In this document: piece by piece, positions 14,903 to 64,000 of the stretch | How the letters are laid out: each line of letters starts with the position of its first letter | How positions within the stretch are numbered: the stretch's first letter is position 1 | Assembly (NCBI GenBank): GCA_006538405.1 | Contig: BJKQ01000023.1 | Span: 217,870 to 281,869, forward strand | DNA length: 64,000 nucleotides | Direction of reading: 5' to 3' | Source of the DNA: Hansfordia pulvinata | Taxonomy: Eukaryota > Ascomycota > Sordariomycetes > Xylariales | The notes under the pieces: model-generated | What the model saw: only the letters and a program-made list of their open reading frames with translations | What the model was told of the DNA's origin: nothing | Database searches by the model: none | Made by a program: the position numbers and the translations under genes

Positions 14903-15149
14903 CACTGTGATGAGGTTGAGAACGCAGGGTTTTGATTCGGGAAACTGCAAGCGGTAGGACAGGGCTGCAACGCCATGTCGAAGAGTTGGCGCTAAAGCCA
15001 ACATACGTAGGCCCGTCCAAATGTGGACCAACAGCAAGAACCTCCGAGTATATATCCAAGAAACTTCTACAGGAAACGGTAACGTGGCAGACGGCTAGAT
15101 TCGTCCTACATCGATACCCTCCTACCAAGACGACAATCGTACCACCATC

Positions 15150-15603
15150 ATGGAAAACATCGACTTGAAGCTTGATGACTTCAATATGTCCACAGAGGAC
15201 TGGCTCCAATACCTCGGAGGGGCCGAATCGGGGGTCGGGCTTCCCGGATCGCAAGGAAGAATGCCGACGCCCCCTCTGGTATCCGACGCGGATTTCCTTT
15301 TCGGAAACCCTGGAAACATATATCCTCCTGCGAATGGAGAGATGCAAGCGTGAGTAATCCCTGTGCCACATCGCTTCTCGCCGTAACTGATACAAGGCAC
15401 CAAGACACATGGCTATGATTCTTTCTCGGCTCCAGACAATCGAGGCTATTGGTGCCCGGGTAGAAAAAACAATCGACTCTGTCAAGGTGGGCCTCCGCGA
15501 TTTCGCTAACGACCTGGTCGGAGTCCTCCGACGTGGCGGTTTGCTGGAGGATCCGGAGATCGTCCATGACGAGGAGCAAGGAGTGTCGGCCCGGGTCACG
15601 TGA
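15150..15603 (+). CDS. module protein 1 (132 aa), copy A, two exons
   Basis: Exon 1 is 15150-15349 and exon 2 is 15405-15603. The 55-bp intron starts GTGAGT and ends at the CCAAG before ACACATGG; splicing at phase 2 joins the frames. The predicted product starts MENIDLKLDDFNMSTEDWLQ, is acidic at first, has a flexible Gly/Pro middle and ends in a helical half (ILSRLQTIEAIGARVEKTI). I recognise no family. The inverted copy (43059-43512) has the same exon sizes, intron length and splice phases, and most differences in sequence are conservative. That retained gene structure suggests a real protein. It lies ~245 bp upstream of the 238-aa gene on the same strand. Confidence 0.6.
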
Positions 15604-15848
15604 GGAGCGATGGACGCACGCAGTTTGTGGATCTCTTGGGCCCCACAGGCCCATTTTCGACACCCCAGTTCCCGTTTTCCGCTTTCTGCAGGACACAGAG
15701 CAGACTGTCGTCTGGCTATCACTATAACTAGATTGGTCACCCAGTATCATATGCAGTAGTATCAGCCAGCTTCGTTAAGGACATTCGCTTCATTCCTCTT
15801 TCAATCTCGAGTGGATTCACTCTTTCCTTCCCCACATCACCCGCGTCT

Positions 15849-16564
15849 ATGATCATGAAGTCATTCGGCAAGCCACTTCCGGACGTGCCGCGCAAATTGC
15901 AACATGTGCAGTCCGTGTCACCCCCAAGCTCGGTTTCCTCCTGCGAGGAGTTGTCTTCAGGGTCTGATCCCAGCTCAAACCGCCTACAGCGAGTTCGCTT
16001 TGGAGACAAGCCGTACGAAACAAGGTTTTTCTTGCCTCCAATGGAAAGTGACGGGGACGACGGCAGCAGCCAAGATGAACGCCCGCGTCTAGCGTCCGAG
16101 TCGGGGGGACCCGCCCATGACGCCAAACCAGCCCGCGCTTATCTCACCGAGAAGGCTTGCTCGAGAAGCGAGCTAACCAACTCGAGCGAGAGAACCGGGA
16201 GTTGCACAGACGCCTCCAGGAGGGAGAGTCGCGAATACAAGCAGTCGCCGGCCTAGAAGAGAAATTCGTCGCTTTGCAGGCAGTAAACGAGCAGTGCGAG
16301 CACAAAATCAGCCAGCAAGACCAATTAATAGCGAATATTGCCAACACAGTCAGCCAAACCTTCAAGGACTATCAAAGGGCCGTCGAGGAAGGGGTTCACC
16401 AGGGAGGCCACCAGGTAGATCACGGAGGCCATCAGGGAATGCAAGAGGGACATCGTGGGGGACACCAGAGACGCACCCCGGCCGCATACGGTGCACCATA
16501 TCACCCGAGTCAAGCAAGTCAATTTGATGCGGATAGTGATAGCGATACGGTTTCCGACTTCTAG
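15849..16564 (+). pseudogene. module protein 2 (238-aa coiled-coil family), copy A, frameshifted
   Basis: The N-terminal ~90 residues (ATG at 15849) and the C-terminal ~135 residues (frame 16157-16564) match the intact copy at 42097-42813 but lie in different frames. The break is near 16120-16130: copy A reads GCCAAACCAGCCC where copy B reads GCCAAAACCAACCC, so one A is missing in A. The C-terminal part retains the coiled coil, the GGHQ repeats and the acidic DADSDSDTVSDF end. No intron explains the shift. Confidence 0.75.
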
Positions 16565-16701
16565 ATTTAGGTCGAGTATGGGGCAAGCGATCTGGCTAGT
16601 AAACAAGGGTACAGGACAGCAAAGCCCTCGTGGGGACTGAATGCGGGCTTAATCCTGGCCTGATGGCCCCATAAGGGTTAGGAGTTTGTATTTCAATGTT
16701 G

Positions 16702-17435: not shown

Positions 17436-18000
17436 TCAAGTTCCGACTGCCTGACAGCGCCACACAGCTTTCCTTATGGATTGAATATCCTCTATGGGCG
17501 AAAGTATTGGCGACAGCGCAAGGCCATCTGCCCATTGCGATTTGGCAGGCTTGGGCGCCTGTGACATTGGCATCAGGTGATCGGTGGTTGAAGTGCTAAA
17601 GCTGTAGCTCTGATAGTCGCAGCGAAGCAGAACGGAGTCCTGGAGACGCTTGGCCTCAGAAACAACCTGAATGGTGGACCACAGGGTACTACCTCCATAT
17701 GCGGCAACAGCGTACATGACAGAGCACGCTGGACTCGCGCTCAGGTGAGAAGTCGTGGGTGGCCTATGAAGCTTCTTACTGTCGACTGGACCGCTGGCAG
17801 AGGCCATCCTTACCTGGGAGGCGTTCGGAGACGAACAGGCAGTTGAACGCGTATCCTAACGACAGGCTGCGGCGATTTGGTCAGGACTTGATAAGTCACG
17901 TTGAGAGCGATAGGACTAATCTTGACATAATTTGCAAGATGAATGCACGCTCCTCATTTTTGAGCCATGGGGCAAGGTGGCAGTACGGGTCATCAGTATC
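17436..18000 (-). pseudogene. module protein 3 (221-aa family), copy A, decayed
   Basis: The frame 17436-17807 matches the C-terminal half of the intact family member at 56405-57070: both share a P-x-CSVxxAxAxY segment, a TIQV segment, and a DxQSYSxSTST segment. The N-terminal part is readable further upstream on the minus strand (from an ATG near 18010, DPYCHLAPWLKNEERAFILQ), but a TGA and frame changes separate it from the rest. The corresponding C-terminal block has been lost in copy B. Confidence 0.6.
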
Positions 18001-18239: not shown

Positions 18240-18990
18240 AGGTATAGAAATTATGGTGAGGCACAGAGCCAAGCACGTACCTCAACGATCGCTTCGCACT
18301 CGGGATTTCCAGGCTGGAACCCCATGACCAAGACGGGCACGCGATCTCCCACAGTTTGAGAATATGCCGAGGAATCAGGGTCCAATCTTCCGCCGTATCC
18401 TCGTGTGTGATGGATATGTGCTCTGCCTCGAATCAAGACGGCCGCAGAATTTGGCTATTCTCTCTGTTGTCGCAATGCATAGCACCGCTCATCACCACGT
18501 CAGTGAAGGAGTACGGCACGTGAATCGTAGCACTGGGCTGGATGATCAGACAGTCGGGATACATGTGGATCCCGATACAGGGCCCGGGAGGCAGATCGTC
18601 TTGCGATGGCTCTTTTGAAAGTCGTGGACGTCAATACTTAAAACTTGGGAAGGACGAGAGATAATTGATGAATAAGTCCATGCCAAGGCAAGACCAGTCC
18701 ATGTTCCACTCTAGGAAGATCAGAATTGGCACCTTCCGGCTTGCCTTTTCTAGAATTTGCCTCGCTGCCTCGGTCGAGCATATCACAATATCACCATCGG
18801 GATAGGTGTGCGTGGACAAGTAGCAAAGTGTCGAGATTGGAGATTCCACAGCACATCGTTCCGAAATTCCCAGGTATGCAAGTGCCTCACGCCCTAGGGG
18901 GGTCCGGTCAGGCATGGCTGGGAAGAGTTTGTATGTCGCTGCACGCGGTGTGTCTAGCAGCCCGTGCCCTTGTGACAGTAAACATGAAAT
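18240..18990 (-). pseudogene. C2H2/JmjC gene, copy A, internally deleted remnant
   Basis: Two parts of the family represented intact at 57351-58835 are recognisable. 18638-18990 encodes the middle (DIVICSTEAARQILEKASRK, then YLSSFPS and VHDFQK in a shifted frame). 18240-18610 encodes the JmjC C-terminal end (QPSATIHVPYSFTDVVMSGA) and continues to the equivalent of the last splice donor (GTACGT here, GTATGT in copy C). The zinc fingers and the central HxD part of the JmjC fold are absent. Frames are broken more than once. Confidence 0.7.
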
Positions 18991-20149
18991 AGAGCAGACA
19001 GTTGGCTGCAAGCGGGGTGGTTACAGCTGTGCCCTATCGCTCGACTTCACAGGATCACCTCTCCACGGTCAGCTTGTCCGTGTGGCTATGTTTCTCCCAG
19101 GTGTTGCTCCTGGCGAACGGGATCTTGCGAAGATGGCACTGGCGCCCGGAACTCGATTAGCTACGCTATGGGCGTTTTCTCCCGTAGACGACCTCGGAGC
19201 AATACTTGCAGCGTGTATGTAGCTGTCGTTGATGTCAACGGATGTAATTATGGCCGAAGTTATTTCCACGGCTGGGAAAGGGTGGAAGGGGGGACGCGCA
19301 CTTCAGCACTCATGTTGTAGCGACGAGGGTGCGGAGATGGCTGTGTAGACCTAAGATCAGAGAGTCGACGGATATCTGACGGTGGACATACGTGGCTTTA
19401 TAGCCATCCATACGCGGGTTGGCCGAGCTCACTGGGGATTTGGTTGACCGGCAAGTAGTGGGTTGGATTGGCTGATACGCGGGTCGGAACTTGGCGCTTC
19501 AGATCTATGCACGACGATAGCCCTAAGCACCTAGACCCCGCCCGGCTTTAGCACCGTTACACCCTGAAGCTGTCTCCACGTTGCTGCCCATCGCCCTGTA
19601 GTTGTCGCCTGCAGCTTCAGCCGCGTACCACTGGGTCCATAATCAAACATTGACTTTGGCGTGATCTTTCCGTGCCTCACAGGGCACTTTAAGGCCGAAA
19701 TAGCCATCCAGCTGCGCTGTGTACTTGGAAACTGTATCACCCGGCGTGGTCGTGACCACTCACGTACCTCGCCTGTATAACGCAAATGCGCGGTTAATGG
19801 GTTTTTACAGTGCGACTGTACAAATGCATGAAATTTCACCAACAGATGCCAGCTAAGAATCAGACTCGCATGAAGACAGACATAGCCTGCTGACCCTGTA
19901 ACTGTGATTTAGGCTGTCTGAGACCGTCCTGTTGGCCGACCGGCCCCGATCTCGAAATCGCCAACCGTGGGGCCCCCTGCGTCTGCGACGATGAGCGTTT
20001 TCTGGTTCGCGATGGGTTATTTCTTGATTAAGAACCTCCGTAAGAGTCCGACATACATGCCCCATTCGACATATCCCCATCCGACTCTGGTGACCGGGAT
20101 ACCAGTCGCGCAAAGCCCGACTTGCGTATGGCGTCGTCAATCCTTGGTT

Positions 20150-21617
20150 CTACAATGCAATCGACTGTTCATTACCATGATGCTGAAGTATCTCTGCGGT
20201 TTCTATCTGCAATCGGGTAGCCAAGCCATGTATGAGCCCTTTGATGAGAGCGGTCCGGGGGTGCGGTGTGCCCTCGCGCTCTCTATGGCTTGCGTACATA
20301 TCTTCAGTGTTCCTAAGGCTATAGACCCAGTTGAAGGTGGACCTCAGGGCAATCGTGATAAAGTCTTCATCACGGACATTCCTCACGATCACAGTCACAA
20401 GATAGGTGATTTTTTGATCATCAGTGCCCAATTTAGCTGGCGCGCTGGTAACGAGGATATCGAACGCCGCGAGTCTCTTCCCTCAAAACCTCAAAAGTTT
20501 TCGGTCTTTCGATATTGTAAAGACACAGAACCGTGCTTTACGGGATGGTCTACCTCGTGTTGGCAACATCCGCAGGCAGTCACCAACGTGCCAGCTTGGT
20601 ATTTTGGAAACTTTGAGTTTCTTCCCTGGAAGGCGATGAAGAGCTGGCCCTGGGGGGAGGCCAAAGATTAAAGCCGAAACGTTGTTGCCAGAGATATGAT
20701 CTAAATATTAGATCCGCTCGGCAGCCTCGCTAGGCTGAGCATTTCTGATCTCCTCTTCTTTGGGGGGTCTTGGGGAAGCTCTTCACTGATGTGCCTAGAT
20801 TATGGTCATCCAATAGCCTTTGCTCAGATTTGGTTGATTTGAACGCCGTGACTCGTTCTCCAAGATTCGCTGGCTTGGCTTGAGTTTGTGCGGAAGCTTT
20901 ATCTCAAGGTCGAGCTGTTTTTGAGATTCTGCCCCGTGCGTCACCCCGAAGTCGTTGCTGTCTTCGTCGCTTTGTACATGAGATGAAACCTCCGCCGCGA
21001 TGCGGGCGGGGCTTGGGGAGCGAGGCTTGAGTTTGTCGATCAGATTTCTTTGGGTCTGATGGGTCGGGAAGCAAACGAACTTCCTTGTTCAAAAAATTGG
21101 AGGCTGCCGATTGCTTGATTGCCACTTCGTAGCGCCTTCGCTTTGGTTTCATGACCACATGGAGAGGTTGTTTTATAGAGCGATGGAAAGAATGTCTGTC
21201 TCGTATCTCTTCTTCGTGCCCACCATCTTGATCGCAGTCCAAACCATCCCGCTTTCCTGTCCTATCTGCAGCGATGCTTCTGCTCCTTGTGGCGGGTGGA
21301 GCCTGGAGAGCTTTCTTTTCTCCAGTTGTCCTGATCCGATCTGAAATCTGGTTGCAAGCATCATTCGTAAGATTTCCATGACCATCCTTCTTGTTCGACA
21401 GAAAGCTTTTGTGGTAGCCTTTCGGGCTGTCGTACGCCTTTTCTGCCCTCCCGAACTTCTCAAGCATGTCGAACCGGGCTGCATCGAGCATGGGGCCGTC
21501 GTCTCGGCGACGTGTACTCAGCATTGTGCAGCGCGAAGGCAGAGGCTCGTCGGTATTCCCGGGGACGGTATACTGTCTTGCTCTTGCCTTGTTCCTCCCG
21601 CCACGATACATCTTCAT
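20150..21617 (-). pseudogene. basic repeat protein gene (~680-aa family), copy A, broken
   Basis: The 5' part (start near 21525, MLSTRRRDDGPMLDAARFDM; the open frame runs 20904-21617) matches the N-terminus of the copy at 59552-61608 and continues through the NLTxxACNxI segment without a frame change. The frame then degenerates, and only one copy of the 33-aa repeat is recognisable (EEEIRDRHSFHRSIKQPL). The 3' part lies at 20150-20431 with VRDEDFITIALRSTFNWVYS, equivalent to the C-terminal domain. Sequence between is decayed or deleted. Copy A is useful because its first ~60 residues are in one frame, unlike copy C. Confidence 0.65.
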
Positions 21618-21890: not shown

Positions 21891-24311
21891 ATGACCCCTT
21901 GGCTTCGAATTCTCTCGAGCCCGCAAAAGCTGATTCTCCAAGAATTCTACAGCGCGTACAAGGTTTTCGACCATCTTGGAGACGCGGCCCCCTGCGTGAT
22001 TCAAGTCATTGGAGGGGGGGATCGATCTCGCGACATTGCAGCTTCCCGCACGCTGGGGCCTACACAATCTGACGCAATCTGCCTCTATTCTTTCTCTGGT
22101 CCTAAAAGGCCTTTCCTTCTGGTGGACAGCGGAGCCGCTCTTCGCTTCAAGCCTGTGAAAGCCCCACTTGATGAAGATGGCCGCCCCGGTTGCTACACCA
22201 TACAAGATCTTATCCCTGGGGCATCAATCTTCCCTGCAGCTGTCAGCGTATTGTCTCGATTCATCGCAGGTCTTTGCCAAACCGGTGTCGTTTTCATGGA
22301 CGATGATCTGGGCCTTTCTGGTGTTCTAGACCTTCTTGCGTCATGGATTCGCCTCCGACGGTACGACATCAGGTCCCGGCCGCGACTGATCCTCGTGAGC
22401 GAAACTTTCTCAGGATCCGCATCTCAACATTTCAAACAAAGAATGTGGAGATACTTGCTGAGGGTTCAGCAAATGGCCGACCCTACACAGCTGTACAAGC
22501 AAGAAGATATGGAGAAATTGTTCTGGGACAGTTTTGAGAGCTTGCATCTACTCCCGACATCGCGACAAGTCAATTCCTCCGTTCTCTCCCAAGCGGACGA
22601 CATGTTCAGTCGGCGACACGCTTCGAGGTGGGCATTTTCTGCCAGTCATTTGCGTCGGATTTTTCACGACGCACTGGTACATTACTCGACTGGAATGACT
22701 GAAAACTTTGATATCTTATCTGCTTTGCGAAAGTCTTCTTTCAGCTCTACGGACTTGTCACATAATGTCAGATGGCTTTTGCGCATGGTTTCCGATCAAA
22801 ACGATGGGCTCTTGAGCCACTTCATCGCTTCAGCACTCCATGCGAATGCCTATCCCGCAGGGGCACACGGTCAGTACACTCGGACTGACGGAGAACGTGA
22901 CTAATATATCATAGCGTTCTTCGCCGACGATATGTACAAAGCCATGTACAGCCATGTAATTGAAGAAACCGTACGGGCATGTGGAAGCAAACTCTCCGCG
23001 CTGTCTGTGATATCTAGATTCTGCAAAATCGCCTACGCCGCACGCGAGTCCAACCAATCAGCCACGGAGTGCCACTTGAGTGTCCTGAAATCCTCACAGA
23101 CTTTCCTGCGTGGCATTTTCAGCAAGACTACTTGCCTAGCCTGCCTTTTGTCACCCCCAGAGAAGTCCCTCGACTGCGGCCACGAACTTTGCGGCCCGTG
23201 TATAAGATCCATCGGCAACGCTTCAATTTCGAAAAATGGAGAATTTACCATGCCAATTTGCCCATTTTGTCAGAGCCAGAATAGTTCAATATTGATTCCT
23301 CGGCCACTCACTGCCTCCCTGAGGACTTTACGTCTGGATGTTCCGTTGAGCAAGAAATACCTCACCGCGGACTTCTTGAAGAGTCTACAAGCGAAGCTGA
23401 TGCTGGGTGACATGCCCCTCCGAGACCATTTCGATGTCGTTCACTGCAGCGGTGTGGGGTCGTACTTTGCTTTGGCTTTATGTTGCCGATACTCGTCTGT
23501 CTCTAAGGCTTCACGAGCGCTTCATTCAGTTGACGGGATCAAACTGAAACAGACACCATTCACAAGGCAGAGATACATCAGCTTTGGTGGTAATCATAGA
23601 TGGACTTTCGACGACATCCAATGTCTGAATGGGCCGTCCCTTCATATTCAGCATTTGGGAAAGACAATTTCGAACAGAATTTGGAAAGGTGAACAATTAT
23701 CAAATCTTTCTGATGACGCGAAAGGCAGGGCGGGCGCCCAACAATTTGAAGTCAGATATCGCGGCGGCATCTTCGACGATGAATACCTGAAATGCCTCGC
23801 CCACCGCCTACTGGGGTGCTTGTTCTATATTGAACTCATTGAGACTCCGAGACTTTACTCGACTCTGGACACCTGCAAGTTGCGGGTTTCATGTCGGCTG
23901 CCGTGGGGTCCGGCACTCGCAAGCTTACAGAGAAAGCTTCAATCTGCGCATTTGGTGTACCATTGCGACGACCGCAGCCAACGCACTGCGCCTTTGTTCC
24001 AGGGTCCTGGAAACACCTCCTTCGAGCAATTGGTAGAGCTGGAAGCCAGCTCATTATCCTCCGTACTCGTCTTTGAAATCGACCATGAGGGCGCTAGATT
24101 TCCGATTGGTAATTGTCCATATCAGCTGCGGAGGCTGATTGAAGACCAAGGGCTGGAGGTTCCATGGCGGGCAGACGCAAATGTCACCGAGGCCAGCGAG
24201 AGCGTCGGGCAACCTCGGCACACCCCAAACTTGAATCTTGAGACCGAGCTATCAGGGCTCTACCAGACTCTGGATGCGTTTTCGAACTCATGGGGTGCAG
24301 GACACAACTAG
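21891..24311 (+). CDS. RING-finger / degenerate patatin-like protein, two exons, 791 aa
   Basis: Exons 21891-22869 and 22915-24311 flank a 45-bp intron (GTCAGT donor, ATCATAG acceptor, CTAAT branch-like site, phase 1), giving 791 aa. Residues 400-445 form a complete C3HC4 RING: C400, C403, C414, H416, C419, C422, C442, C445. Fungal proteins combining a RING with a downstream patatin-like domain are known. The following region (~455-620) aligns with that domain by pattern, but the oxyanion loop DGGGxxG is replaced by LDVPLSKKYL, and the nucleophile elbow GxSxG is replaced by FDVVHCSGVGSYFALA. The lipase function is therefore probably lost, while the RING ligands are intact; an E3-ligase or sensor role is inference. 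It is the only full-length copy in the window; a decayed copy lies at 61977-62680. It converges on the dynamin-like pseudogene. Confidence 0.8.
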
Positions 24312-24491: not shown

Positions 24492-26700
24492 TCAAACATG
24501 TCCTTTCCAAATCTTCCAAGCCTCCTCATATCTCTCAATCTTTGCATCTAGCTTCAGTCTCTGACTTTTTGTTGCAACATCTTCTCCAGCAATGTCTTCC
24601 AGGTTCTCATCGCTCAACCCCCGAACAAACTTGGAGCTGAACACATGAAGTGGTCCGTCTTGACTGTCCAAGAGCATGTAATCCACGACCTGCTGACAAA
24701 CGACATCAGCAAACCGTTTCCTGGCGACCTTGTAGTGGCTTTCCAAGACGTCGTGCACCTGTTCCATGGTCTGCTCGGAATTCGACTTGGATACTGAAAG
24801 GCTCTGAAGCCTCTCCGTGGAAATAAAAATTCCATCCTCTGGATGTTCATCATCGTCTCGGAAGCCTTTCTTCCTGCGAATGGCGGCATTGTTGGTGGCA
24901 GTTATCCCGGCATTTTGGACGAGCTTAACCACGCGAGTATTTTGCGACTTTTGCAAGTTCTCGTTGAAGTAATGGTTTAGGGTGTATTTAGTTCCTTCCC
25001 TTTCGGTCTTGATGATAAACTTGGCGTGATCAATTGCTTTGTCGTAACAGTGCACCAAGATGTCCAGGATGTGGTTGTCCCAAAGTTCTCCGAAAACATT
25101 CGTGTCGGGACAGACGAATCTCATTGTGCGATGGATGAAGTGGTGTAAGATGAGGATCACCCGATTCAGGTAACAGAACATGATAGGCTCCCATGAGACT
25201 GACTGGTCTTTGAACAGAGTGGCAAGGAGGCCGCCGCCAAACTGGGTTCATTAGAAATTGATCCCAGTGCACTTCGTATGGCTGACTTACTGTACCGAGG
25301 TCCCGGCCTTTGCTGCTCCTGTAAACAGACCTGATGTGATCCAGGATACGACCATCTGCGACGATGTCTTTCATGTCTTGACGGGTCTCGAAATACTTGC
25401 AAATCTCGGGATAGAGCCTCCCAAGTTTGTACGGATGCTGAAGGCTAGAACAATGAGCAAGGTAGGTCTCGAATGGCTCGGGGCTTGATAAATCAAGTTC
25501 AGCATCAAGCTCCTCATTTGACCCGCCGTCGCTCATTTCCACGCCGAGATCATCAACGTCCGTAGTTGATTCTGCTTTCTCAAAAGCCTCAAAAGCCCAC
25601 GAGTGACCCCTGCTTCTCAGATTCTCCGAAAACAGCTCATTGACTTCAACTATTCGGGTGATAAGTCGAAGGCTTCTCTTTTCATGTAGAAGTCTGTGGT
25701 TGGAATAGCGAGCAGTCAGGGCGTCCCGGATGATCTGTTGGAATTTGTCGCTCAGGTCTGACAAATAATCAAATTGAGCAGCAGCGGTAGCTCTGGATGA
25801 TCCCATTCCCTTCTTCTGTTCGTGTAACTCCACGAGGGAGTCTTTGACTTCAGATCTGAGTCTGGGGAACTCCCTCTTGATGAGCTCGGACAGAAATTCG
25901 CGCACTCTAATCTTGAGTGCCTCAATGCCAGCTCTTTGTGTGTGCTCTAGTTCCGACCAAGGCTCATTTCTGAAGAACGCACGCTCGTCCTGCTGGCCTT
26001 CTGCGAGGGGTTTCAAGGAGTCGTCCGGGCCACGATCTTTGACAATGTAGTATCCCAGGGTCAGATCACTGCGCTTTCCTGTGACGTGATCGATCGCAAT
26101 TGTCTGTGTAGCTCGTTCAATGTTGAGATCCGGCTTTGTGAGGATCGCCATCGTCCTTTTCATGTCTGGGTCCACATGCTTTGCCAGATTCGAAATCTCT
26201 TGTGTGGCCGGGTCGACGTTGCTGGGAAATATGACCAAGATTCTGTGAAGAGCTTATTAGGGACACAAAAAAGACGTAATGTACATTTGAAAGGTATATC
26301 CACATCTCTCTTGTGTTCTTCATAAAACCTTTTTTCATGCCCCTGATCAGAGCAATTTGGCTCTAGGCAGTGGGGCCTGATTTTATGAGCGTATGTACGG
26401 GGTTAGGGTCTGATTTGGCTTTGATAATTACCTGACTCTTCGCGCCGAAAAATCCCAGACACGTCGATCACGGTGAAATATTTTTGCTAATTTTGTTAGT
26501 TTCAGGATACTTACTTCGGGGTTCTCTTATCGTACCTCTGGCCCAAAGACCTCGGTTTTGAGGAAATGTTCACTAAAAGCGAGCTCAGCCTGGTTGGTCC
26601 TGATTGTTCGACTGGCAGTCTGGAAGATTCGCTCTAGCTCTTTACTATTTATCGCAGGAAGAACCTCGTGAAACCCGTTCAAACCCTCTCTCTGGAGCAT
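24492..26700 (-). pseudogene. dynamin-like GTPase, 5'-truncated (no P-loop)
   Basis: The 3' two thirds is readable: an exon ending at 25291 (frame from 26238), a 49-bp intron with GTAAGT donor and a last exon 24492-25241, joined at phase 0. It contains the post-G3 segment PSNVDPATQEISNLAKHVDP and the G4 motif LTKPDL, the middle/stalk region and the GED-like C-terminus. Upstream, minus-strand pieces give LKTEVFGPE, then YFTVIDVSGIFRREESG (the G3 DxxG region) and a KNTRE segment, separated by plausible but partly damaged introns. An ATG at 26700 opens MLQREGLNGFHEVLPAINSK. The G1 P-loop (GxxxxGKS/T) that should precede it is nowhere upstream, so the GTPase cannot bind nucleotide as encoded. Fungal dynamin-like proteins of this type are often in accessory regions. 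Confidence 0.75.
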
Positions 26701-40364: not shown

Positions 40365-40620
40365 ATTGTAAGTCAACAAGACAAAGCGGACTGGGATTGA
40401 CTTCTAATGAACGCAGTTTGTCGGCGGCCTCCTTGCCACTCTGTTCAAAGATCAGTCCGTGTCATGGGAGCCCATCATGTACTGCCACCTGAGTCTCGTC
40501 ATCCTCGTCTTACACCACTTCATCCATCGCACAATGAGATCCTTGTGCCCCGATACGAATGTTTTCGGAGAACTTTAGGACAACCACACCCTGAACATCT
40601 TGGTGCACTGTCCAAGCGCT
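40365..40620 (+). pseudogene. dynamin-like gene fragment, copy B
   Basis: This segment matches the end of the exon-intron junction region of the dynamin-like pseudogene (about 25020-25291 minus): the GTAAGT donor and the intron itself, acceptor, then GGLLATLFKDQSVSWEPIM, HHFIHRTMRSLCPDTNVFGE. The intron is retained, so this is a DNA-level copy and not a retrocopy. A TAG replaces the TGG of the A copy (ELWDN becomes EL-stop-DN). At about 40620 it joins directly to a JmjC fragment. Confidence 0.75.
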
Positions 40621-40624
40621 GCGA

Positions 40625-40900
40625 TGCATGCGCCATAATCCTTGACTGACGTGGTGATGAGTGGTACTATGCACTGGGATAGCAGAGAGATCGTTCAGAA
40701 TCTGCGGCTGTCTCGGTTCGAAGCAGAGCACCCTTTCATCACAAACGAGGATACGGCGAAAGATTTCATCCCAAGGAATAGGCATATTCTCAAACTATGG
40801 GAGACGGCATGCCCGCGTTGGTTTTGGTTGTCAGACTGGAGATCCCTGAGTGCGAAGCGATCATCAACTTGCCTGCTTGATACTGCCTGGTCATGATCTC
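40625..40900 (+). pseudogene. C2H2/JmjC gene, copy B, C-terminal fragment
   Basis: The frame 40642-40896 reads TDVVMSGTMHWDSREIVQNL, FITNEDTAKDF and HILKLWETACPRW, matching residues ~390-450 of the intact protein encoded at 57351-58835. The zinc fingers and the catalytic part of the JmjC domain are missing. Confidence 0.75.
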
Positions 40901-42096: not shown

Positions 42097-42813
42097 CTAG
42101 AAGTCGGAAACCGTATCGCTATCACTGTCCGCATCAAATCGACATGCTTGGCTCGGGTGATATGGTGCACCATGTGCGACCCGGGTGCGTCTCTGGTGTC
42201 CCCCACGATGTTCCTCTTGCATTCCCTGATGGCCTCCGTGATCTACCTGGTGGCCTCCTTGCTGGACCCCTTCCTCGACGGCCCTCTGATAGTCCTTGAA
42301 GGTCTGGCTGACTGTGTTGGCAATCTTCGCTATTAACTGGTCTTGCTGGCTGATTTTGTGCTCGCACTGCTCGTTTACTGCCTGCAAAGCGACGAATTTC
42401 TCTTCCAGGCCGGTGACTGCCTGTATTCGCGACTCTCCCTCCTGGAGGCGTCTGTGCAACTCCCGGTTCTCTTGCTCGAGTTGGTTAGCTCGCTTCTCGA
42501 GCAAGCGTTCTCGGTGAGATAAGCGCGGGTTGGTTTTGGCGTCATGGGCGGGTCCCCCCGGCTCGGACGCTAGACGCGCGCGTTCATCTTGGCTGCTGCC
42601 GTCGTCCCCGTCACTTTCCATTGGAGGCAAGAAAAACCTTGTTTCGTACGGCTTGTCTCCAAAGCGAACTCGCTGTAGGCGGTTTGAGCTGGGATCAGAC
42701 CCTGAAGACAACTCCTCGCAGGAGGAAACCGAGCTTGGGGGTGACACGGACTGCACATGTTGCAATTTGCGCGGCACGTCCGGAAGTGGCTTGCCGAATG
42801 ACTTCATGATCAT
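42097..42813 (-). CDS. module protein 2 (238 aa, coiled coil), intact copy B
   Basis: A single-exon frame of 238 aa starting ATGATCATGAAG. Residues 1-95 are Ser/Pro-rich and acidic. Residues ~100-180 form a long coiled coil (RANQLEQENRELHRRLQEGE and onward). Residues 183-210 carry three GGHQ motifs (186, 193, 204) in a Gly/His/Gln-rich segment. The end is acidic (DADSDSDTVSDF). No enzyme motif is visible; a scaffold or oligomerising role is inference. The partner in arm A has lost one base and its frame, so this is the only intact copy in the window. It lies head-to-tail downstream of the 132-aa gene (next entry). Confidence 0.65.
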   Translation of the reverse strand: MIMKSFGKPLPDVPRKLQHVQSVSPPSSVSSCEELSSGSDPSSNRLQRVRFGDKPYETRFFLPPMESDGDDGSSQDERARLASEPGGPAHDAKTNPRLSHRERLLEKRANQLEQENRELHRRLQEGESRIQAVTGLEEKFVALQAVNEQCEHKISQQDQLIAKIANTVSQTFKDYQRAVEEGVQQGGHQVDHGGHQGMQEEHRGGHQRRTRVAHGAPYHPSQACRFDADSDSDTVSDF

Positions 42814-53303: not shown

Positions 53304-55034
53304 TCACAAACCGGCTACCCCATTTCTTCCTTTCTCTATCTGTACGGGCCTGTATTCAACCTCAGCAAAGTGGATGTCGGCATTTTGAATTGCCTCCTCC
53401 CTAATGCGACCCGCGAATCCCGCATCACCACATGCTGAGAATCGTCAGTACACAAACAAATAAGATTTAAATCCCCCACCGTGAACTTACCGACAACGAT
53501 ACTTTTACCTGGTGACTTGATACCAGCACTTATCTCTTTATAGATACCTTGGTCATATATGTTGGAGCTCTGGTTTGGATACAGACAATGCCAATATGCG
53601 TTGGGAGCAAAAGGAGGACTGCGCCGCTGTGGAGATGGGTAGATGCACCAAATGCAGAAGAGCCTCTGTGAAGTATTAGCAATAATGATTCCCCATGGGC
53701 CATAGCAGAAACATATACATTGGACGGGTCAAGCTGTTGTAGAGACTGAAGCTCGTCCCGAAGCCATTTTTGCTGTGAGTTTTGCTCCAAAACCCAGAAA
53801 AGATCTATCTTTCGTGTTTTATCTCGAAATGGACGATTTCCTGTATGGGTTCTCGACTCATTTTGCAGTTTTCGCAACTCGGTGTCGTGAGCCTGACGTC
53901 GCGCAAGGTCGAGTGCGTATGGTAGTACGCCTGCTATTCCAGCTCCCTTGGCAGCTAGAATGACGTTTTCAAAGCGATAAAGCTTGAGGTCCTGTCCATA
54001 GGGCCCGTCAAGAAGCACGCTGCGTAGGCTTTCAGGTTTTTGAAACAATCTCTCCACAGATCCCTGTCTTTTCATGAGGAAAAGTATAGAGGACCGACTG
54101 TCTTCACCTCTTCCTGGGGTCCACCATGCAACTGTCATAGGCAGGCCCTGCGCCCTATACCTGAAGGGTCCATGGTGAAAATACAGGTAAAAGTAGCATC
54201 CTGGGTAGACGACCAACCCTCGACGATTCTCCACTCGAGCGTGTAGGAGATCCTGGGTGGCCCTTACATCGACCCTGGCGCTGCCGATATATAAGCATCG
54301 GGTTAAGCGAAAGATTGTAGTGAAAGCCCAGAAACCACATGAGCAGCTCGCAATCACCTTTGCCAGGGGGCGCGGCAGCGAGAAAACATGCCACATGACA
54401 GAGGCAATAATGAATAAAGAGAGGACAAAATGGATCCTCCGAAACAGATCATGGTGTATGCGGCGGACAATGCAAATGGACGCAAGACCGATGAGGAGTA
54501 GCGACAAAGAGGCCTTATATGGAGTGTCAGTAATTCTAATCAGAACCGAAGAAGCGAGGTACTTACACAGTATCCCGAAGTGGTCATCTCAGGGTAAGAT
54601 TGAGGAGGCAGTAGCGATATGACAGCATGAATAAGAGCTTCAATGATAGCTACTCTCCCGAACCAATGATGTGCAAGATAATAGTGTGGTAATGGAAACC
54701 CGATAAAGCTCATGAGGGGATTTGTCCTCCCTCTGAAGTACAAAGGAACTAGGTTGACCAAAGCAGCGAAAGCGGCACGTTTTGATAAACTAGACCGGTC
54801 TCGGACTGAGTAGCCAAGGACTAGGCCATTTATAGCGAGATATACTGTAAGATAAATCACCTCCAAACGGCTGATGCTTCCCGTGTAGCCGTTGCGCGAG
54901 ATGACGAGTGGGTATTGAACGTGGGACCTGAAGGCGTGACCAAATCTAGCGACAATAAGAAGGGCGATCGGTCGCAGCGTGAATAGAATAATGATGGACG
55001 CAAGCGTCAGTCCATAGACGACTGAAGGCTCCAT
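53304..55034 (-). CDS. ferric-reductase-type transmembrane oxidoreductase, four exons, 522 aa
   Basis: Exons 54567-55034, 53719-54513, 53491-53665 and 53304-53434 splice at phases 0, 0 and 1 through short introns (donors GTAAGT, GTATAT, GTAAGT); the product is 522 aa. An ATG at 55073 would add 13 residues. Four heme-ligand histidines stand at normal spacing: H123 and H136, H184 and H198, giving the bis-heme core of the FRE/NOX-like family, which moves electrons from NADPH across the membrane, usually to Fe(III) or Cu(II). The NAD(P)-binding half has GPYG at 326-329 and GxGIAG at 346-351, and the end CGDAGFAGRIREEA is the family's conserved Cys-Gly motif. The FAD-binding H-P-F-T motif is altered to LPMTV (280-284). 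The gene is structurally intact, in contrast to its neighbours. Transcription is away from the copy C module. Confidence 0.85.
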
Positions 55035-55073
55035 TGTGAAGGTGAGACTTACAATTAAGCCTCGAATGGTCAT

Positions 55074-55579
55074 AATTGGCGATCCATATTATCTATGTAG
55101 AAGCATACGTACCTTCATTCCGTGCTGGGTATGGCTGTGCACAGCGCATTGGTAGAAAAGACCGAATTTGGCCATGGTGGATCACCCCCACAAATGCCAT
55201 TTTCTGCCATTTTCTTTTTAACTTGCGGGCGCCTCTGAATGCCGATAACCGCCTAACGTACTTTAAGCCAATTCAGCCTGACATTTTGCTATTTTCGGTT
55301 TCTGTTCAAGTGCATTCTTGTCGTCTTATGGAGAAATGACCCACAAGCCAGCGCAAGTATATTTATGAATGACTTGGAACGTCTTTGTCGTTTCTCACGT
55401 CAGGCCCCCCATGTCAAACCAAGTATTGACTGTACCGCCGCGTTTAGTGTGAAGCAAATAAAGCCCATTTGTTTCTGAGAGAGGTTGGGCAGACATCCGA
55501 AATTTCCGAGGACGGTTCGTCACGGGAGATATGACATTACTCGAGAAGCAGTTCTCTCCACCGTATAAACAAAGCGCTG
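55074..55579. other. intergenic upstream of the ferric-reductase gene
   Basis: Contains the likely promoter of the minus-strand reductase. No ORF with a recognised domain. Confidence 0.4.
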
Positions 55580-55700
55580 TTGAGCAGAGAGGCCATCAGG
55601 GAGGCGCCCACGAGGTGCACGACACGAAGAGGTCCCAGTACCTTTGAACCTGACACCGACAGCGAGAGCGACACCATTTTTAACTTTCAGTTGCATGCAC
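55580..55700 (+). pseudogene. module protein 2 (238-aa family), copy C, 3'-end relic
   Basis: A fragment with GHQGG-like sequence is followed, in a shifted frame, by FEPDTDSESDTIFNF, matching the GGHQ repeats and acidic end (FDADSDSDTVSDF) of the intact copy. The 5' three quarters is missing and frames are broken. It sits in the same position relative to the 221-aa gene as the copy A gene does. Confidence 0.55.
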
Positions 55701-56404: not shown

Positions 56405-57070
56405 CTAGGTACGTCGTGCTCGTTTCCCCCCTTTGGCATCACCAAGCTCTTCATCGTCGAACTCCTTGTTGCCCCGTTTCAGTCCTGCAGCCTGGCGCCC
56501 GCCCCTTCCACGACCTGGTCGGCGAGCCGCTGCCCCATCAAAAGCACGTCTTTCCGAGGTAACCCTGTCATCCCCCACAAATTGAACCCCTTCCATTGGT
56601 GACAACATTGACGACTGCACAGCATGGGGTTCCCGTTGAACGCCCACGGGACTTGGCGTTGGCGCTAAGAGCATCAGGGGCTCATTGGTGGAGGTGCTCA
56701 CACTGTAGCTCTGATCATCGCAACAAAGTAAAACAAAATGGTGGAGGGGCTTCGTCCATGCAAGGTCGACCTGAATGGTGGGCCAGGGGGCGTTTCCTGC
56801 GTATTCAGCAATGGCGAATACAACAGAGCACACAGGATCGGTGCCTAGGATTGAAGCTGTTGGCATGCATAGCTGTTTCCAATGATCGACGAGGCCGCTA
56901 GGAGAAGTGATTCCTTCGTAATAGGTCGATAGCGCCAAGCACGCAAGCCTGACACGCATGCCCACAACAGGCTTCTGTAATTTTGTAAGTACTTGGCAAG
57001 TGATATCCATCGCGACAGCAGTCAAATCAATGGCAATGGTAGTGCAAGAGCTCAGCGAAATAATGCTCAT
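56405..57070 (-). CDS. module protein 3 (221 aa), intact copy C
   Basis: A single open frame of 221 aa starting at an ATG (MSIISLSSCTTIAIDLTAVA). The middle contains VVGMRVRLACLALSTYY and a Cys/Ser-rich region; the last ~60 residues are basic and Gly/Arg-rich (AARRPGRGRGGRQAAG, then KRARRT), as in nucleic-acid-binding or nuclear-localised tails. No named domain is recognised. Copies A and B carry N-terminal and C-terminal pieces that align with it, and their upstream sequence DPYCHLAPWLK is not found here, so this copy may have a different 5' end. Confidence 0.55.
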   Translation of the reverse strand: MSIISLSSCTTIAIDLTAVAMDITCQVLTKLQKPVVGMRVRLACLALSTYYEGITSPSGLVDHWKQLCMPTASILGTDPVCSVVFAIAEYAGNAPWPTIQVDLAWTKPLHHFVLLCCDDQSYSVSTSTNEPLMLLAPTPSPVGVQREPHAVQSSMLSPMEGVQFVGDDRVTSERRAFDGAAARRPGRGRGGRQAAGLKRGNKEFDDEELGDAKGGKRARRT

Positions 57071-57350: not shown

Positions 57351-58835
57351 TTATCGCTGCTTAGAAAGAGAACCGGCTAACTGAAATTCTCAAACCACTA
57401 ATTCAGATTAGAGACGAGCCAGCAACAGTGAGCAGGTACATACCTTGACAATCTTTCTGCATTCTTCGATATCAACGGTAGAGCCCCATGACCAGGGCAA
57501 ACACTCTTTCTCCCAAAGTTTCAAAATATGTCTTATTTTCGGAATGAAATCCATCGCGGTATCTTCGTTGGTGACGAATGGGAATTTCGCCTCTAGCTTC
57601 GACAGCTGCAGAACTCGTAGGATTTCCCTGCTGTCCCAATGCATAGTTCCACTCATGACCACGTTAGTAAGGGAATACGGTGCATGGATTGTCGCGCTTG
57701 GCTGAATGAGAAGGCATCCGGGATACAGATAGATCCCTATAGGAGCTCCTAGCTGCATCGTGCTCGATGATGCCCAGTCCGAAAGGATGCGTGAATGCCA
57801 CACTGGCCACAGCTTCTCGCCGCAGTCGGTGAACACCGTGGTCATGACGCCATGACGATCAATGTGTGGCATCGAAAAAGCGCCTTTCTTGGCACATAAT
57901 TGGAATCGCGTCGAGTCAAGCAAGTCTATTGCGACGGGTGAATCCATCTTCCCACTCTCCGTCTTGGCGATTTCCATGACAGAGTAAGAGGGCAATGAAG
58001 TCAGGCAAGATGGAGTCGGATGGGGCTTGCAGCCACCAAGATTCAACATGTTGATGGGACCGTGAGCCGGGTCTTGCAATTTTCGGATGGCCGTTCGTGA
58101 TGGCAGGGACTTGGGGGTAGCCAAGGAGGTAGATCTGTCATATCTTTGTTGGAAGTCGTGAACGTCGAGAGTTGGGAAGGACGATAGATATGTGACGAAG
58201 GAATCCATAGAAAGACAGAACATATTTTCATCCAGCTCTGCGGGGATCATGAGTGGTACTTTTGGGCTTGACTTCTCCAATATGCTTCTCGCTTCTTCGT
58301 TTGAGCAAACAACAAATTCATCGTCGTCAAAGTTGTCTTTCGACATGTAGCCGGCTGCCGATAAAGGATGTCCGACAGTACATTTTTGAATGATCTCAAG
58401 GAAGGCAGGGCCCTCCTTCTGCAGGCGAGACTGGCTTGAAGCATCATCGAGCAGACTGCCAAGATCGCTTTTCGCCGTTTGTATGGCTGCTTCTGCGCTC
58501 CGACGATATTTCTGAACGACGTTGGACCACTGACTGCAGATGTGACAGTTCAGAATGTGTGACTTTGCCTGACTCTGAAGAATCACTTTCCCACATCGGA
58601 CCGGTTCATGAGCCAGTTTGATATGCTTCTCCAGGGCATTGCTTCTGACAAATGATGCCTTGCAGAGGGTGCATTGGCGCCCGGGATCTCGCCGGGCGCA
58701 ATTGTGGCGTCGAGCTTTGGCCCCGTAGAAAACTACCAGACATCGGTTGCAGCGGGCATGAGGTTGTCGCTGGTGGCGAGGGAAGGAATTTTGGCTGAAT
58801 TTCTGGAGGCACAAGCTGCATTGTTGGACACTCAT
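57351..58835 (-). CDS. C2H2 zinc-finger / JmjC-type protein, two exons, 473 aa
   Basis: Exon 1 (57444-58835) plus a short last exon (57351-57380) gives 473 aa. The 63-bp intron has a GTATGT donor and TTTCAG acceptor and joins at phase 0; read-through would end after 11 other residues. A canonical C2H2 finger occupies C55, C58, H71 and H76, with further Cys/His pairs before it (C6/C9, C29/C32, H45). The C-terminal half is JmjC-like: HxD at 324-326 (MPHIDRHGVMTTVF) and a distal His at 384 in PSATIHAPYS, followed by GTMHWDSRE, which matches the 'GTxH ... WDSR' end of fungal JmjC domains. The three metal ligands for Fe(II) are therefore present; oxygenase or demethylase activity is inference. Copies A and B are remnants. 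It is divergent from nothing nearby but collinear with the basic repeat gene upstream. Confidence 0.75.
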
Positions 58836-59551: not shown

Positions 59552-61608
59552 TTACCGCTTCTGTGTACTAATCGCCCCCGAATCCGAAGCAGGAGCTTCC
59601 AGGTCGTAGCGAACTCTCCTGCCTGGCCTCTTGGGAGAAGATCTGGAACCACCCATCATCGGATGTTTGGAGTCTGTCGCGGTAAGGGTGCGATCAGGCG
59701 TCTGTGATGGAGAAGTGACAGCTGTTGTTCCAGAACGGGGGGTCCAGCCTCCCTTGGACTGCTGGTGGACGCTGGATTCTGACTCTACGTCCGACATTTC
59801 TTGGTCCGAAGCGGGAGATCTTGACACTGTTCGTGCGAACCCTCGCCCCGCACTTGGTGTTATCGATTGATAGGTTGTTGGTTTGACTTTGTTGGTGTCT
59901 TCTATAGACTGTACCAGCACTGGCGCTTCGAACGGCAACATGCCGGTTGAGTCCGGGATCAAGCCCTTCGAGATAGCCGCATGAGGCTGTGGGGTGCCAT
60001 CTCGGGCTCGGTGCCTTGCATACGTAAATTCTGTTTTCCTCTGGCCATAAACCCAGTTGAACGTAGATCTCAGAGTGATGGTGACGAAATCCTCATCCCG
60101 GAATTTCCCCAAAATGACAGTGACGGGATAACCCACCCGTTCCTTGCTCACGTTGCCTCGATCTGGGGCGCTGGCAACAAGGAGTAAGTCGAAGTCAGAA
60201 AACTTTTTCCCACTGAAGCTATCAGCAGTCCGATACTCCAAAGGTGATGAGCCGCGACTTGCGATCCAAGCCGTCTTTTCCTGTCGACATTCAGACGCAG
60301 GAACTAGTGCACCTGCTTGATACCCAGGAAAGTCTGGGTTTCTGCCCTGGAATGCAACCAGAAGCTGGCCGCGTGGCGTGAGCCCAATAATGAGTGCATC
60401 GACTTCTGTCCCGGAGACAATATCCAAGTAATGCATTTTACCAACGGCTTGGCTGGAAACGGTGTTCTGCAGTTCCTCTCCCGTGGGAAGCCTAGGCGGG
60501 AACGATTTCAAGATTTTTTCAAGCTTGTGGTCATCAAGTAAGCTTGGTTGCGAGTGTCCCGACTTAGTCATAGAAACTAAAGATTGAACGGCTCCTGTCC
60601 TCATGCCTCTTTCGTCCTGGGACGGCCCATTTGGAATTGTCTGTTGTCGAGGTAAGAGACCTGGGGAGCGTCGGGCCTGGACTTTTTGCTGCGTTTCTTC
60701 CGATTCCGCGCCGCTTTCAACGTGGGATTGAAATCTTTGGCGACTTTGTAGCAAATGCCCTTTCGTACTCCGGTCAACCGGTGACCTGTCTTGGCCGTCT
60801 CTTGCAGGAGGGCCATCGTGAACTGGCTGTTGCTGAAGAGCGACCCTTGGAGACCTGGCACGCTCACCGCGAGTATCTGAGTTACCGAAAGAGCTGAAAA
60901 TACCTTTCTCGCCGGCAAACTTGGAAAAGGGCTTCGTGAGCTTTTTCCCTTCCTGAGTAGCCGCAGTAACCGCCTGTGGATGTGAAGCCTCGGTGTGCTG
61001 ATCAAGTTCCTTTGCTAGCTCAGGGCGGGGTTTCTTGCTCGGGCGGTTGGTTGAAGGTGCTTCTCTGATCTTCACTTCAAGATCTGAATCTTGACGCCCT
61101 CGCTTCGACGCAGGAGCATCCGGGCGGAATTTCTTGTTCGGGCGACCCAAAGAAGGTCCTTCTCTGATTTCGACCCCAGTGTCAGATGCTTGGTGCTCCC
61201 TTTTTTCAGTGGAAATCTCTGAGCGCAACTGTTTTATCGGGCGGCTGACAGCTGGCCTTTGTCGAATCTCTTCCTCTGACTGATCGCGTTCCAAACGACT
61301 GCGTTTCGTCGCGGAAAGGCCCGTTTGAGCACGTTGACCTTCCTTTTCTGTCGCGTCGTTAGCGCCTTTTAGGTAGGGTGGAGACCTGGACATCTTGCCT
61401 TTTCTGGAATGGCCTCGGATCCAATCCAAAATGTCATTGCAAGCCTCTTTGGTGAGATTTCCATCGGCATTCTTCTTCTTGGACAAGACAATCTCGTATT
61501 CTTCTCGCGTATGTCGTAGGCACTCTTTGCCTTTCTCAGCTTCTCCAAGAATTCGAACTGGTCTTTATCAAAGACAGTCTCGTCGTTCTTGCGACGTGAG
61601 CGCAACAT
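59552..61608 (-). CDS. large basic repeat protein (~680-aa family), 5' frameshift
   Basis: The 644-codon frame 59552-61486 has no good ATG at its start. The true N-terminus begins at the ATG at 61608 (MLRSRRKNDETVFDKDQFEF) in another frame; one base is missing near 61500, where copy A reads through. The N-terminal half is highly charged, with three perfect-period 33-residue repeats (residues 74, 107 and 140) of the type EIRExPSxxRPxKKxRPE. The C-terminal domain (~330-560) contains LIIGLTPRGQLLVAFQGRN, PVTVILGKFRDEDFVTITLR and STFNWVYG; it is conserved in copy A. The tail is Ser/Pro/Arg-rich. I do not recognise a named family. Unless the frameshift is a sequencing error, this copy produces at most an N-terminally altered protein. 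Confidence 0.6.
61010..61270 (-). repeat. three tandem 99-bp coding repeats
   Basis: Inside the basic repeat protein gene, units start at residues 74, 107 and 140 of the 644-codon frame, an exact 33-residue period. The conserved core is (E/K)IRExPSxxRPxKKxRPE followed by KRxxQxSD. Copy A keeps only one recognisable unit. Confidence 0.75.
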
Positions 61609-61976
61609 CGTTCAGTTGAAATAACATGAAGCGACTCAGTGAGCAAGACCTTTGCTTTTTAGAAAGTGTTCGCTTTATGGCGAGCTTCTGTTCTTTTTTT
61701 CTTCGGCTCTCCGGGCGCGATAGTTATATATGTGCAGAGAACGCAAATGAAGCGCTAATCGACGAACATGGTTTTTGTTGCGCCTGAAATCGGGTTTCCG
61801 AACCTGGCGGACCTTGTAGCGTGTCCGTTTTCAGGTTTTGATCACTACCGGTGGGGCAGGTGGGGCACGCCCAGACGATGTGAGGAACCTGGTACAACTC
61901 ACGTCCAAAGCAGGTCATACCTCGTGTGTTATGTACCAGCGTCTCTGAAAGAGTCGACGCTTGATGAAATCAAATT

Positions 61977-62680
61977 ATGAACTCTGTTGTTGCAACCATG
62001 GGTCGCTGGCTTCAAATCAATACAAGCCCTTGCCAACTGTATTTGAAGGCACTGAGCGGTGTTTACCAGATATTCGACCACCTTGGGGACAAAAAGCCGT
62101 CCGTGGTCCAGGTCATCAGGGGTAAAGATGTCACAATGCATGGCGAACTTTATCACAACCGACCACCAGGATCCAAACGCAATAGACTTTGTGCTGCTCA
62201 CATGTAGGTCCAAAAAATACGTTTCCCTCGTCGATTGCGAAGCATCTCTTCGCTTCAAGCCCGCCCTCGAAATGACGACTTTCTGACGCAAAACGCCATG
62301 GGTGACACGCCGTTCGGAGCTTGGTCCCTGGATGATCAGCTATCAAGATAGCTGTCAGTTTACTACACGGGTTTAATCGCAGCCATTGTTCAAAACGCTG
62401 GGATATTTGTAGATTATATGCGGGCTTGTCGAGCATACTGGAGCTTCCTGCACCGCGGGTCCAGCTCCAACTGTAAGACATTCGATCCGGATCGGGGCCT
62501 CTCCTTGTGAGCAAGATTTTCGCCGATGATAAATTCCGGCAATGAATAAGGGGATATTTATTGAGGGTTTGACAGATGACAAACCTACGAATATGTACAA
62601 TACAAGCGTGACGACGTAGAGACAATGTTCTGGGACAGCTCCGATAGCCTCAATCCTCTATATGTATCCTTACAAGTCAA
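61977..62680 (+). pseudogene. RING/patatin gene, copy C, decayed 5' part
   Basis: The start is close to that of the copy A gene: LSGVYQIFDHLGDKKPSVVQ against A's YSAYKVFDHLGDAAPCVIQV, then in another frame SLVDCEASLRFKPALE against LLVDSGAALRFKPVKA. A last recognisable piece near 62607-62660 (VETMFWDSSDSLNPLY) matches MEKLFWDSFESLHLLP. Frames change several times; the RING and patatin parts are missing. Confidence 0.75.
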
Positions 62681-64000
62681 CTATACCATTTTTCAGAGGT
62701 GGATAAGAAGTCAAGTCGAAGACATGATTTGAGCCGCGAATTTGAAAGTTTGCTACCTTGTTTTCTCGCTATTTTGTCTGTACTGGAACTCACGTAACCG
62801 TCCTGTGAAGAGTGTGGAGAGTGGGCGTGTGGATGCCAAGTGACATGGTAAATAGTGGCAGTGCCAAACGTAACGGATTTACAATGCTGCATCACTCGAC
62901 TTGACGGGGCCAAGATGTAATTGCACATGACAACAACGACTGCAGGCACCACTCAGATATGATCAGTTGGCTGTGGCACGTCACCATATGCTCCTGTCCA
63001 GGGTGAGATCATAGTTCTCTTGATGTACATTAGTTCCGAGAAGACTAGAACAACTTAGCTCACCAGATAGCGCTACGAGGAAAAAATCCCTGTACTGTAG
63101 GACATGACGCCACTGCTTACTGGCTGGGCGATTGACATGGATAAGGACAGTGGAGTATGAGATGCTGCATATCTATGCTAGCGCCAACACACAAGTAATA
63201 ATGTGACATTGCCTAGTCCTGGAACGGGCCAACAAGAGTTCGTGGGCTAGAGATCGAAATCTTGTGTACTGCGCGGGTCCCACAAATCGCGGAACAAATG
63301 GTAAGCTCGGCCGGATAGTAATACGACTTGCATGTGCGTACGTACGAAGCGGGGTTTAGTTCAGTAAACGACGCTCTTTTAACCGAATTACTATTTCGGT
63401 CTCGAAAGAAAAACACGCCCTTCAAGATTGCAAAATATAGCTTTCAGCCTGTTCTTAACTTTTTCTGGATCGGGAAAACAGGTAATGGCTGTTCTCTTGA
63501 ACGTGCAGATACACGTTGCGATTGGGGCTGGTAACGAGACAAGATTCCGGTCAGATAGATGGTCTTGCTAAAGTGCTTCTGAAACCCACGTTGGCGATGT
63601 TGGCGATGTTGGTGTTAAACTAAACCGCGAGGCCCAGGACGCTCAAAACAAATCTCAGGCTGCTCACATCTATTACGACGAGAACGGCAACTACACTACA
63701 CTGGGCACATGCTGTTTCCTGAGAGACAAAATAAGAGCAGTGACTGAGTTTTTAAGAATATGCGAGACTCGATAGCAGTATGAAAGATGCAGGAAAGGAT
63801 CATATTGTTTAAGGATTGATACTGTTCGTCGGAGCCAATTAATAATTGCGTGGAAATAGTGATTAATTAATCGTACACTTCTTTTTCAGAGAGACCACGT
63901 GATAACTGCCGATTCTCGCGTGTCTCTGGGCTAGCGGCGCCGGCCAAGGATCTTTCCATGCCACTCTCAACACCATGGTTCAAGTAACAATGAATGGTTA
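62681..64000. other. right-edge sequence without a supported gene
   Basis: A short frame near 63610-63775 (SQAAHIYYDENGNYTTLGTC) looks mildly coding but cannot be assigned. A GTTGGCGATGTTGGCGATGTTGGTG microrepeat is at 63591-63616. Nothing else is recognised. Confidence 0.35.

Follow-up and report, generated by a model that had tools for sequence, protein, structure and literature searches.

Fungal accessory chromosomes are rich in H3K27me3, and in Zymoseptoria, according to the accessible part of the source, this mark covers the accessory chromosomes and its removal cuts their mitotic loss about 4-fold (PMC7348808). In Fusarium oxysporum, working copies of KMT6 (the histone methyltransferases KMT6B and KMT6C) lie on an accessory chromosome, and the same authors, in the sections available, refer to genes for histone modifiers on accessory chromosomes of Metarhizium (PMC12774646). 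Proteins of the JmjC type include Epe1 of fission yeast, which opposes heterochromatin, and DMM-1 of Neurospora (PMC7192584, as far as the available text goes). How accessory chromosomes persist despite their instability is an open question, and it is touched by the locus described here, a real and unusual repeated gene block of Hansfordia pulvinata, which is confined to about 2.2% of the assembly and has at its core a gene for a zinc-finger JmjC protein. The literature searched yielded neither JmjC together with accessory chromosomes nor accessory chromosomes, JmjC and segmental duplication together in fungi, and, as the preliminary description of this DNA had supposed, the combination is absent from that literature as a described system.

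Block copies within the window

The window, i.e., the whole stretch of 64,000 bases analysed, corresponds to bases 217870-281869 of contig C23 in an assembly of 46.8 Mb and 63 contigs. It holds three copies of the block, A, B and C, with the following features (window positions).

15849..16561, plus strand: copy A coiled-coil gene, broken frame (two pieces in different frames)
17475..17950, minus strand: copy A 221-aa gene remnant (41% to copy C)
18280..19261 (C23:236149-237130), minus strand: JmjC gene remnant of copy A, interrupted by in-frame stops (protein match to JmjC)
20064..21527, minus strand: what remains of the 613-aa gene in copy A (pieces with 36-52% to copy C; stops)
21891..24311, plus strand: copy A RING gene, two exons and a predicted 45-nt intron at 22870-22914 read from the sequence (791-aa product; RING PF00097 at 21.5-21.6 bits against a cut-off of 21; 51% to P0018)
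24492..26253, minus strand: dynamin gene adjoining copy A, represented by its central and its GED part (both PF01031 and PF02212 pass the cut-off; copies adjoin other A-type units)
40272..40625, plus strand: copy B dynamin remnant (83% DNA identity to 25047-25386)
40594..40881, plus strand: copy B JmjC remnant (protein match to JmjC)
42097..42813, minus strand: copy B 238-aa coiled-coil gene, open frame (dN/dS 0.35-0.96 against seven copies)
53331..55073, minus strand: ferric reductase gene of copy C, divided between open frames for its transmembrane and its NAD-binding part (both PF08030 and PF01794 pass the cut-off; Apiospora P0001 matches with its reductase part at 54-58%)
55570..55687, plus strand: what remains of the coiled-coil gene in copy C (E 3e-7 in tblastn from the coiled coil of C24)
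56405..57070, minus strand: copy C 221-aa gene (dN/dS 0.17 at dS 0.55 against the C24 copy)
57408..58835, minus strand: copy C gene for the 475-aa zinc-finger/JmjC protein, which forms the conserved core of the block (16 relatives; H324, D326, K341 and H384 invariant; KDM7/KDM2-like model; dN/dS 0.14-0.23)
59552..61393, minus strand: copy C 613-aa basic protein gene (dN/dS 0.27 at dS 0.47; pI 9.8; one relative)
61998..62726, plus strand: copy C RING gene remnant in several pieces (four tblastn pieces, 36-59%)

Self-comparison of the window identified B as an inverted duplicate of A (A 14876-17392 against B 41273-43789, 94%), and A 17813-18537 and 25047-25386 also match B, at 77-83%. Because these further pieces of A match B, the latter is A minus its middle, the stretch from 18.5 to 25.0 kb; of the block it contains the coiled-coil gene, a portion of the 221-aa region and the JmjC and dynamin remnants, and nothing more. 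Protein comparison of A and C found the 221-aa, JmjC, 613-aa and RING genes collinear and on equal strands, with 36-56% amino acid identity in pieces of at least 30 aa, while at the DNA level the two match in patches only (67-75% identity). The inverted, partial state of B and the common order and strands of A and C, both proposed in the preliminary description, are thus borne out, the latter for these four genes, and the synteny does not vanish upon alignment. The same six-gene set had also been ascribed to all three copies, which holds only in part: B has few of the genes, C keeps its coiled-coil and RING genes as remnants, and a ferric reductase gene and a dynamin gene are further members of the block. 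The coiled-coil remnant of C sits where the common gene order, given below, predicts. Of the genes of A, JmjC and 613-aa are interrupted, and RING is open once the predicted intron is removed. The region previously called a 132-aa gene is not supported as such, given its weak coding signal (best-frame dN/dS 0.44-0.55) and the 2-4 stops found in all four copies compared. Neither a tRNA (search with the bacterial code) nor an Rfam match was found in the window.

Block copies on nine small contigs

The module had been described as present three times, a figure that proved far too low, as up to 28 clusters occur on nine contigs (C23, C24, C29, C32, C40, C43, C47, C48 and C60). All the genome matches listed for the JmjC (66/66), 613-aa (38/38) and coiled-coil (16/16) genes fall on these contigs, as do 15 of the 17 listed for RING, 9 of the 11 for ferric reductase and 10 of the 15 for dynamin, the remaining ones being more distant (25-49% identity) and on other contigs; these counts are lower bounds, because the searches scored best candidates only. 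The control chaperonin genes, one core family, gave 15/15 matches on C1, C2, C4, C9 and C10. Together the nine contigs, of 13.6-282 kb each and with duplications in common, total 1,008,881 bases (2.16% of the assembly). A telomere was found on C29 only among the nine with a 60-base pattern, which leaves shorter tracts possible elsewhere (a 24-base search, with 100 of its 240 matches listed, reached as far as C16). The window ends where C23 ends, and we rejected a chromosome end there, since C23 carries no telomere repeat at that end and the repeated sequence continues in C29 and C24. The nine small contigs, roughly 1 Mb together, probably derive from a single accessory chromosome; what weakens this inferred status is that they show only one telomere and that the comparison covers one core family and a single isolate.

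Grouping of the matches produced 32 clusters, 28 of them with at least two of the six searched genes and four with a single gene. In 26 of the 28, order and strands follow one pattern, with members absent in places: ferric reductase (-), coiled coil (+), JmjC (-), 613-aa (-), RING (+) and dynamin (-); the two clusters that depart from it are C24:120226 and C32:24771. For this table, clusters were oriented with JmjC or 613-aa on the minus strand and neighbouring pieces were merged; it uses 52 of the 66 JmjC rows (14 small pieces were dropped, one of them, C24:123943, on the opposite strand) and omits RING rows on C34 and C6, reductase rows on C2 and C13, and dynamin rows on C1, C5, C6, C7 and C14. 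The figure of 28 is an upper count, because C-type copies at contig ends may show one copy on two contigs, and the clusters are not independent, because many are recent duplicates. Others are old: the copy at C24:69.9-77.5 kb, with coiled coil, JmjC, 613-aa and RING remnant in order, stands at a dS near 0.5 from copy C for both JmjC and 613-aa, and the JmjC copies at C23:62.6 kb, C32:46.8 kb and C40:64.7 kb lie beyond a dS of 1.

The JmjC, 613-aa, 221-aa and reductase genes are open in several C-type units, with five JmjC copies open across all 475 residues, and copy C retains its RING gene as fragments; the A-type RING gene is fully open in two units and has one frame break in three others, and every A-type cluster has stops within its JmjC pieces. 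This seemingly complementary retention suggests that selection keeps working copies within the compartment and not each unit whole. Near-identical copies differ partly by one-base gaps, which may be assembly errors, so that a broken status is uncertain among them.

The JmjC gene and its partners

Purifying selection acts on the JmjC gene, whose dN/dS is 0.14-0.23 in seven comparisons at dS 0.02-1.8 (three of the seven partners have 3-4 stops, which were skipped). At dS 0.49 the coding frame gives 0.15 and zero stops, and the five other frames 0.23-2.12 and 19-27 stops. The HxD...H iron ligands and the 2-oxoglutarate lysine (H324, D326, K341 and H384) are invariant in 18/18 rows and align with those of KDM2A, and the structure model of the 475-aa protein has a JmjC fold that is predicted to be KDM2/KDM7-like. 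None of the 18 family members matches PF02373 at E <= 0.01, matches to that model in the genome being confined to C4, C7, C8 and C19, and six of the 18 match PF08007 (JmjC_2) at the same threshold. The N-terminal fingers, of C2H2/C2HC type, score below Pfam cut-offs, and PHD, CXXC and F-box parts are not among the Pfam matches of the protein at E <= 0.1. The gene has no close core relative in its own genome, and an origin from a virus was rejected, as the JmjC protein had no relative in the one scan made of viral contigs. The core gene thus encodes a JmjC enzyme that is under constraint and predicted to be active, with histone demethylation as its proposed role. TYW5, JMJD6 and FIH have the same general fold, and sharing a fold does not establish a substrate.

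Purifying selection extends to the 221-aa gene (dN/dS 0.17) and, at depth, to the 613-aa gene (0.27); between near-identical copies, where changes are few, the latter reaches 1.35-2.7, which is either evidence against tight constraint at that range or a product of assembly noise. The basic 613-aa protein is assigned no fold, because its structure prediction has a pLDDT of 30.7. The coiled-coil gene is under looser constraint, the range of 0.35-0.96 over seven copies excluding two short comparisons (L038 and L041) with saturated dS. The RING protein is of the C3HC4 type and a candidate ubiquitin ligase, with P0018 scoring 23.8 bits for PF00097. It had been proposed as a degenerate RING/patatin protein; the RING part stands, just above the cut-off, and the patatin identity is not supported, as no patatin model matches P0018 or either RING exon frame at E <= 1. 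A HCSGVG sequence, seen by eye in the RING protein and P0018, lies at what we take to be the position of the patatin GxSxG motif. Overall, the conserved block, which has been duplicated many times, combines a zinc-finger JmjC and a RING protein with small proteins under constraint, much as first described.

A search for co-occurrence in other species, suggested in the preliminary description, was mostly negative. Nine of the 16 JmjC relatives are named and belong to nine species, one each; Apiospora, Bombardia, Pleurostoma, Fusarium poae and Stylonectria have such relatives. The 613-aa and RING proteins have one relative each, among about 8000 candidates sharing most words: P0017, on a short contig, and P0018, on a 3.3-kb contig. 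P0017 is 97% identical to the 613-aa copy at 71 kb of C24, which is thus likely present also in a second sample, from a very closely related organism. No named JmjC species is among the best-scored candidates of the 613-aa and RING searches, which use common five-residue words and can miss fast-evolving relatives. The sole linkage of block genes seen outside this genome comes from gene models of Apiospora kogelbergensis and A. phragmitis, in which the predicted JmjC part is fused behind a ferric reductase with 54-65% identity to that of copy C where aligned (over no more than 32 residues in A. phragmitis); JmjC and reductase are therefore neighbours there too, but in another order, with the reductase upstream.

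Explanations of the block and comparison with known systems

We tentatively favour, at somewhat less than an even chance, a linked block, likely spread by segmental duplication on a likely accessory chromosome, whose core is a predicted zinc-finger JmjC demethylase that would remove the silencing marks of the chromosome itself. The zinc fingers would direct the enzyme to DNA or chromatin, the basic protein of 613 aa might bind nucleic acid or chromatin, and the RING protein could ubiquitinate a factor of chromatin or of silencing. Overall, heterochromatin would weaken on the accessory compartment, whose genes might remain active or whose chromosome might be better kept. The compartment would then encode its own chromatin eraser, with substrate, targeting, partner roles and benefit all conjectural. 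Counting against this reading are the sub-cut-off fingers, the missing match to PF02373, the PHD and CXXC parts that the Pfam matches do not show, the 613-aa and RING searches that met no JmjC neighbour elsewhere, the high dN/dS between near-identical 613-aa copies and the many broken copies. That the accessory chromosome is a selfish replicon, securing its expression, retention or transfer with an anti-silencing kit of multi-copy demethylase, basic chromatin-binder and RING ligase, seems to us unlikely.

A joint function of the block is unproven, and it is about as likely that its genes are passengers in a repeat-rich accessory region that copies its contents, some of them useful singly. The copied segments exceed the block and take in further genes, kinase and TPR genes among them; the left end of C23 repeats window 48.3-61.7 kb, inverted, at 82-97%; the units decay and their edges vary. 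The copy at 95-99 kb of C29 has no match over 120-150 bases past window position 56519, inside the 221-aa gene, and A-type copies have two different kinds of left flank. Selection on, or mobility of, the whole block had been suggested: constraint is evident in the JmjC, 221-aa and 613-aa genes, but a discrete mobile block is unsupported because copy edges differ, and a transposon with fixed ends was rejected on the same borders. Segmental duplication inside the accessory region is likely the simplest account of the spread. The single JmjC relatives of the nine named species also agree with passengers; yet passengers would not readily account for order and strands kept even between copies past a dS of 1, for the constraint on those three genes, or for the adjoining ferric reductase in Apiospora.

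The fusion to that reductase also fits a different role for the JmjC protein, as an active 2-oxoglutarate oxygenase on a non-histone target (e.g., a hydroxylase of RNA, a ribosomal or a metabolic protein) tied to the iron supply of the neighbouring reductase. The shared fold of TYW5, JMJD6 and FIH and the JmjC_2 matches are compatible with it, and we nonetheless consider it improbable. More improbable still is that the block was carried by a giant transposon (e.g., a Starship) that is now mostly derelict: ferric reductase and patatin-like genes are frequent Starship cargo in the available part of PMC12134995 and the block has a ferric reductase, but it has no patatin match, the borders differ among the copies compared for common element ends, and the search for the captain domain DUF3435 gave no match in the genome, although the control genomes also gave none.

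The tentatively preferred eraser can be set against several known systems. With Starships (PMC12134995, in its accessible part) the block has the ferric reductase in common, and it differs in having no fixed ends and no captain match, in a search with a silent control. The KDM2/KDM7 (JHDM1) demethylases resemble its JmjC protein in fold and active-site residues; they differ in their PHD, CXXC and F-box parts, in place of which the block protein has sub-cut-off N-terminal C2H2/C2HC fingers, and in PF02373, which it does not match. The nine contigs, small and rich in duplications, are like the duplication-rich accessory and mini-chromosomes of fungi, on which we know of no conserved JmjC-centred block. 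Epe1 and DMM-1 are likened here by description: in the former a Tyr replaces the His of an iron ligand, and the latter is inactive in vitro, according to the available text of PMC7192584, whereas the block protein keeps all ligands.

A likeness in setting is that of KMT6B/C, also histone-modifying enzymes on accessory sequence, whose authors raise, in the sections available, the idea of selfish chromosomes with modifiers of their own (PMC12774646). As there described, KMT6B/C are writers related to a core gene, whereas the block JmjC protein is a predicted eraser, multi-copy, set in a fixed block and with no close core relative. The JmjC family of 16 relatives and the fixed gene order can now be sought in other genomes. 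If the preferred reading is true, a chromosome-borne eraser under selection would give the chromosome a direct route to act on its own chromatin, and would pair with the accessory-borne writers KMT6B/C.

Differences among near-identical JmjC copies

Five near-identical copies of the JmjC gene (L015, L017, L019, L020 and L021) are distinguished by 3-11 gap bases and, in most, by 3-9 substitutions, with 31 in L019; these differences may be assembly errors in repeats.

Larger duplicated segment and contig ends

Two frames belong to the larger duplicated segment, which is repeated in inverted orientation at the left end of the same contig:

49985-51502, 505-aa frame
51478-52215, kinase-like frame (PF06293)

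The 505-aa frame had no match in a Pfam search and gave a dN/dS of 0.25 against its left-end copy, while the value for the kinase-like frame was 0.53. At the right end of contig C24, an insertion of 3.9 kb (L068:739-4670) that neither the window nor C29 has holds two protein-kinase-like frames, as judged by eye, and its examination for inverted ends revealed none that were clear. Telomere repeats lie at one end of other small contigs (C25, C35, C36, C42, C50, C52 and C53), on which genome searches with six of the block genes found none of these genes.

Sequences between block copies

A LINE-type retrotransposon lies at 32382-35978, where frames for an endonuclease, a reverse transcriptase and an RNase H-like domain were recognised by eye; in the window self-comparison it has a 113-bp relative at 46043-46155 (74%). 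Four other frames lie between the copies:

4479-6449, ankyrin frame
30352-31245, UbiA prenyltransferase frame
39170-39754, NACHT-like frame
46365-47234, TPR frame

All four kinds are common in fungal accessory regions.
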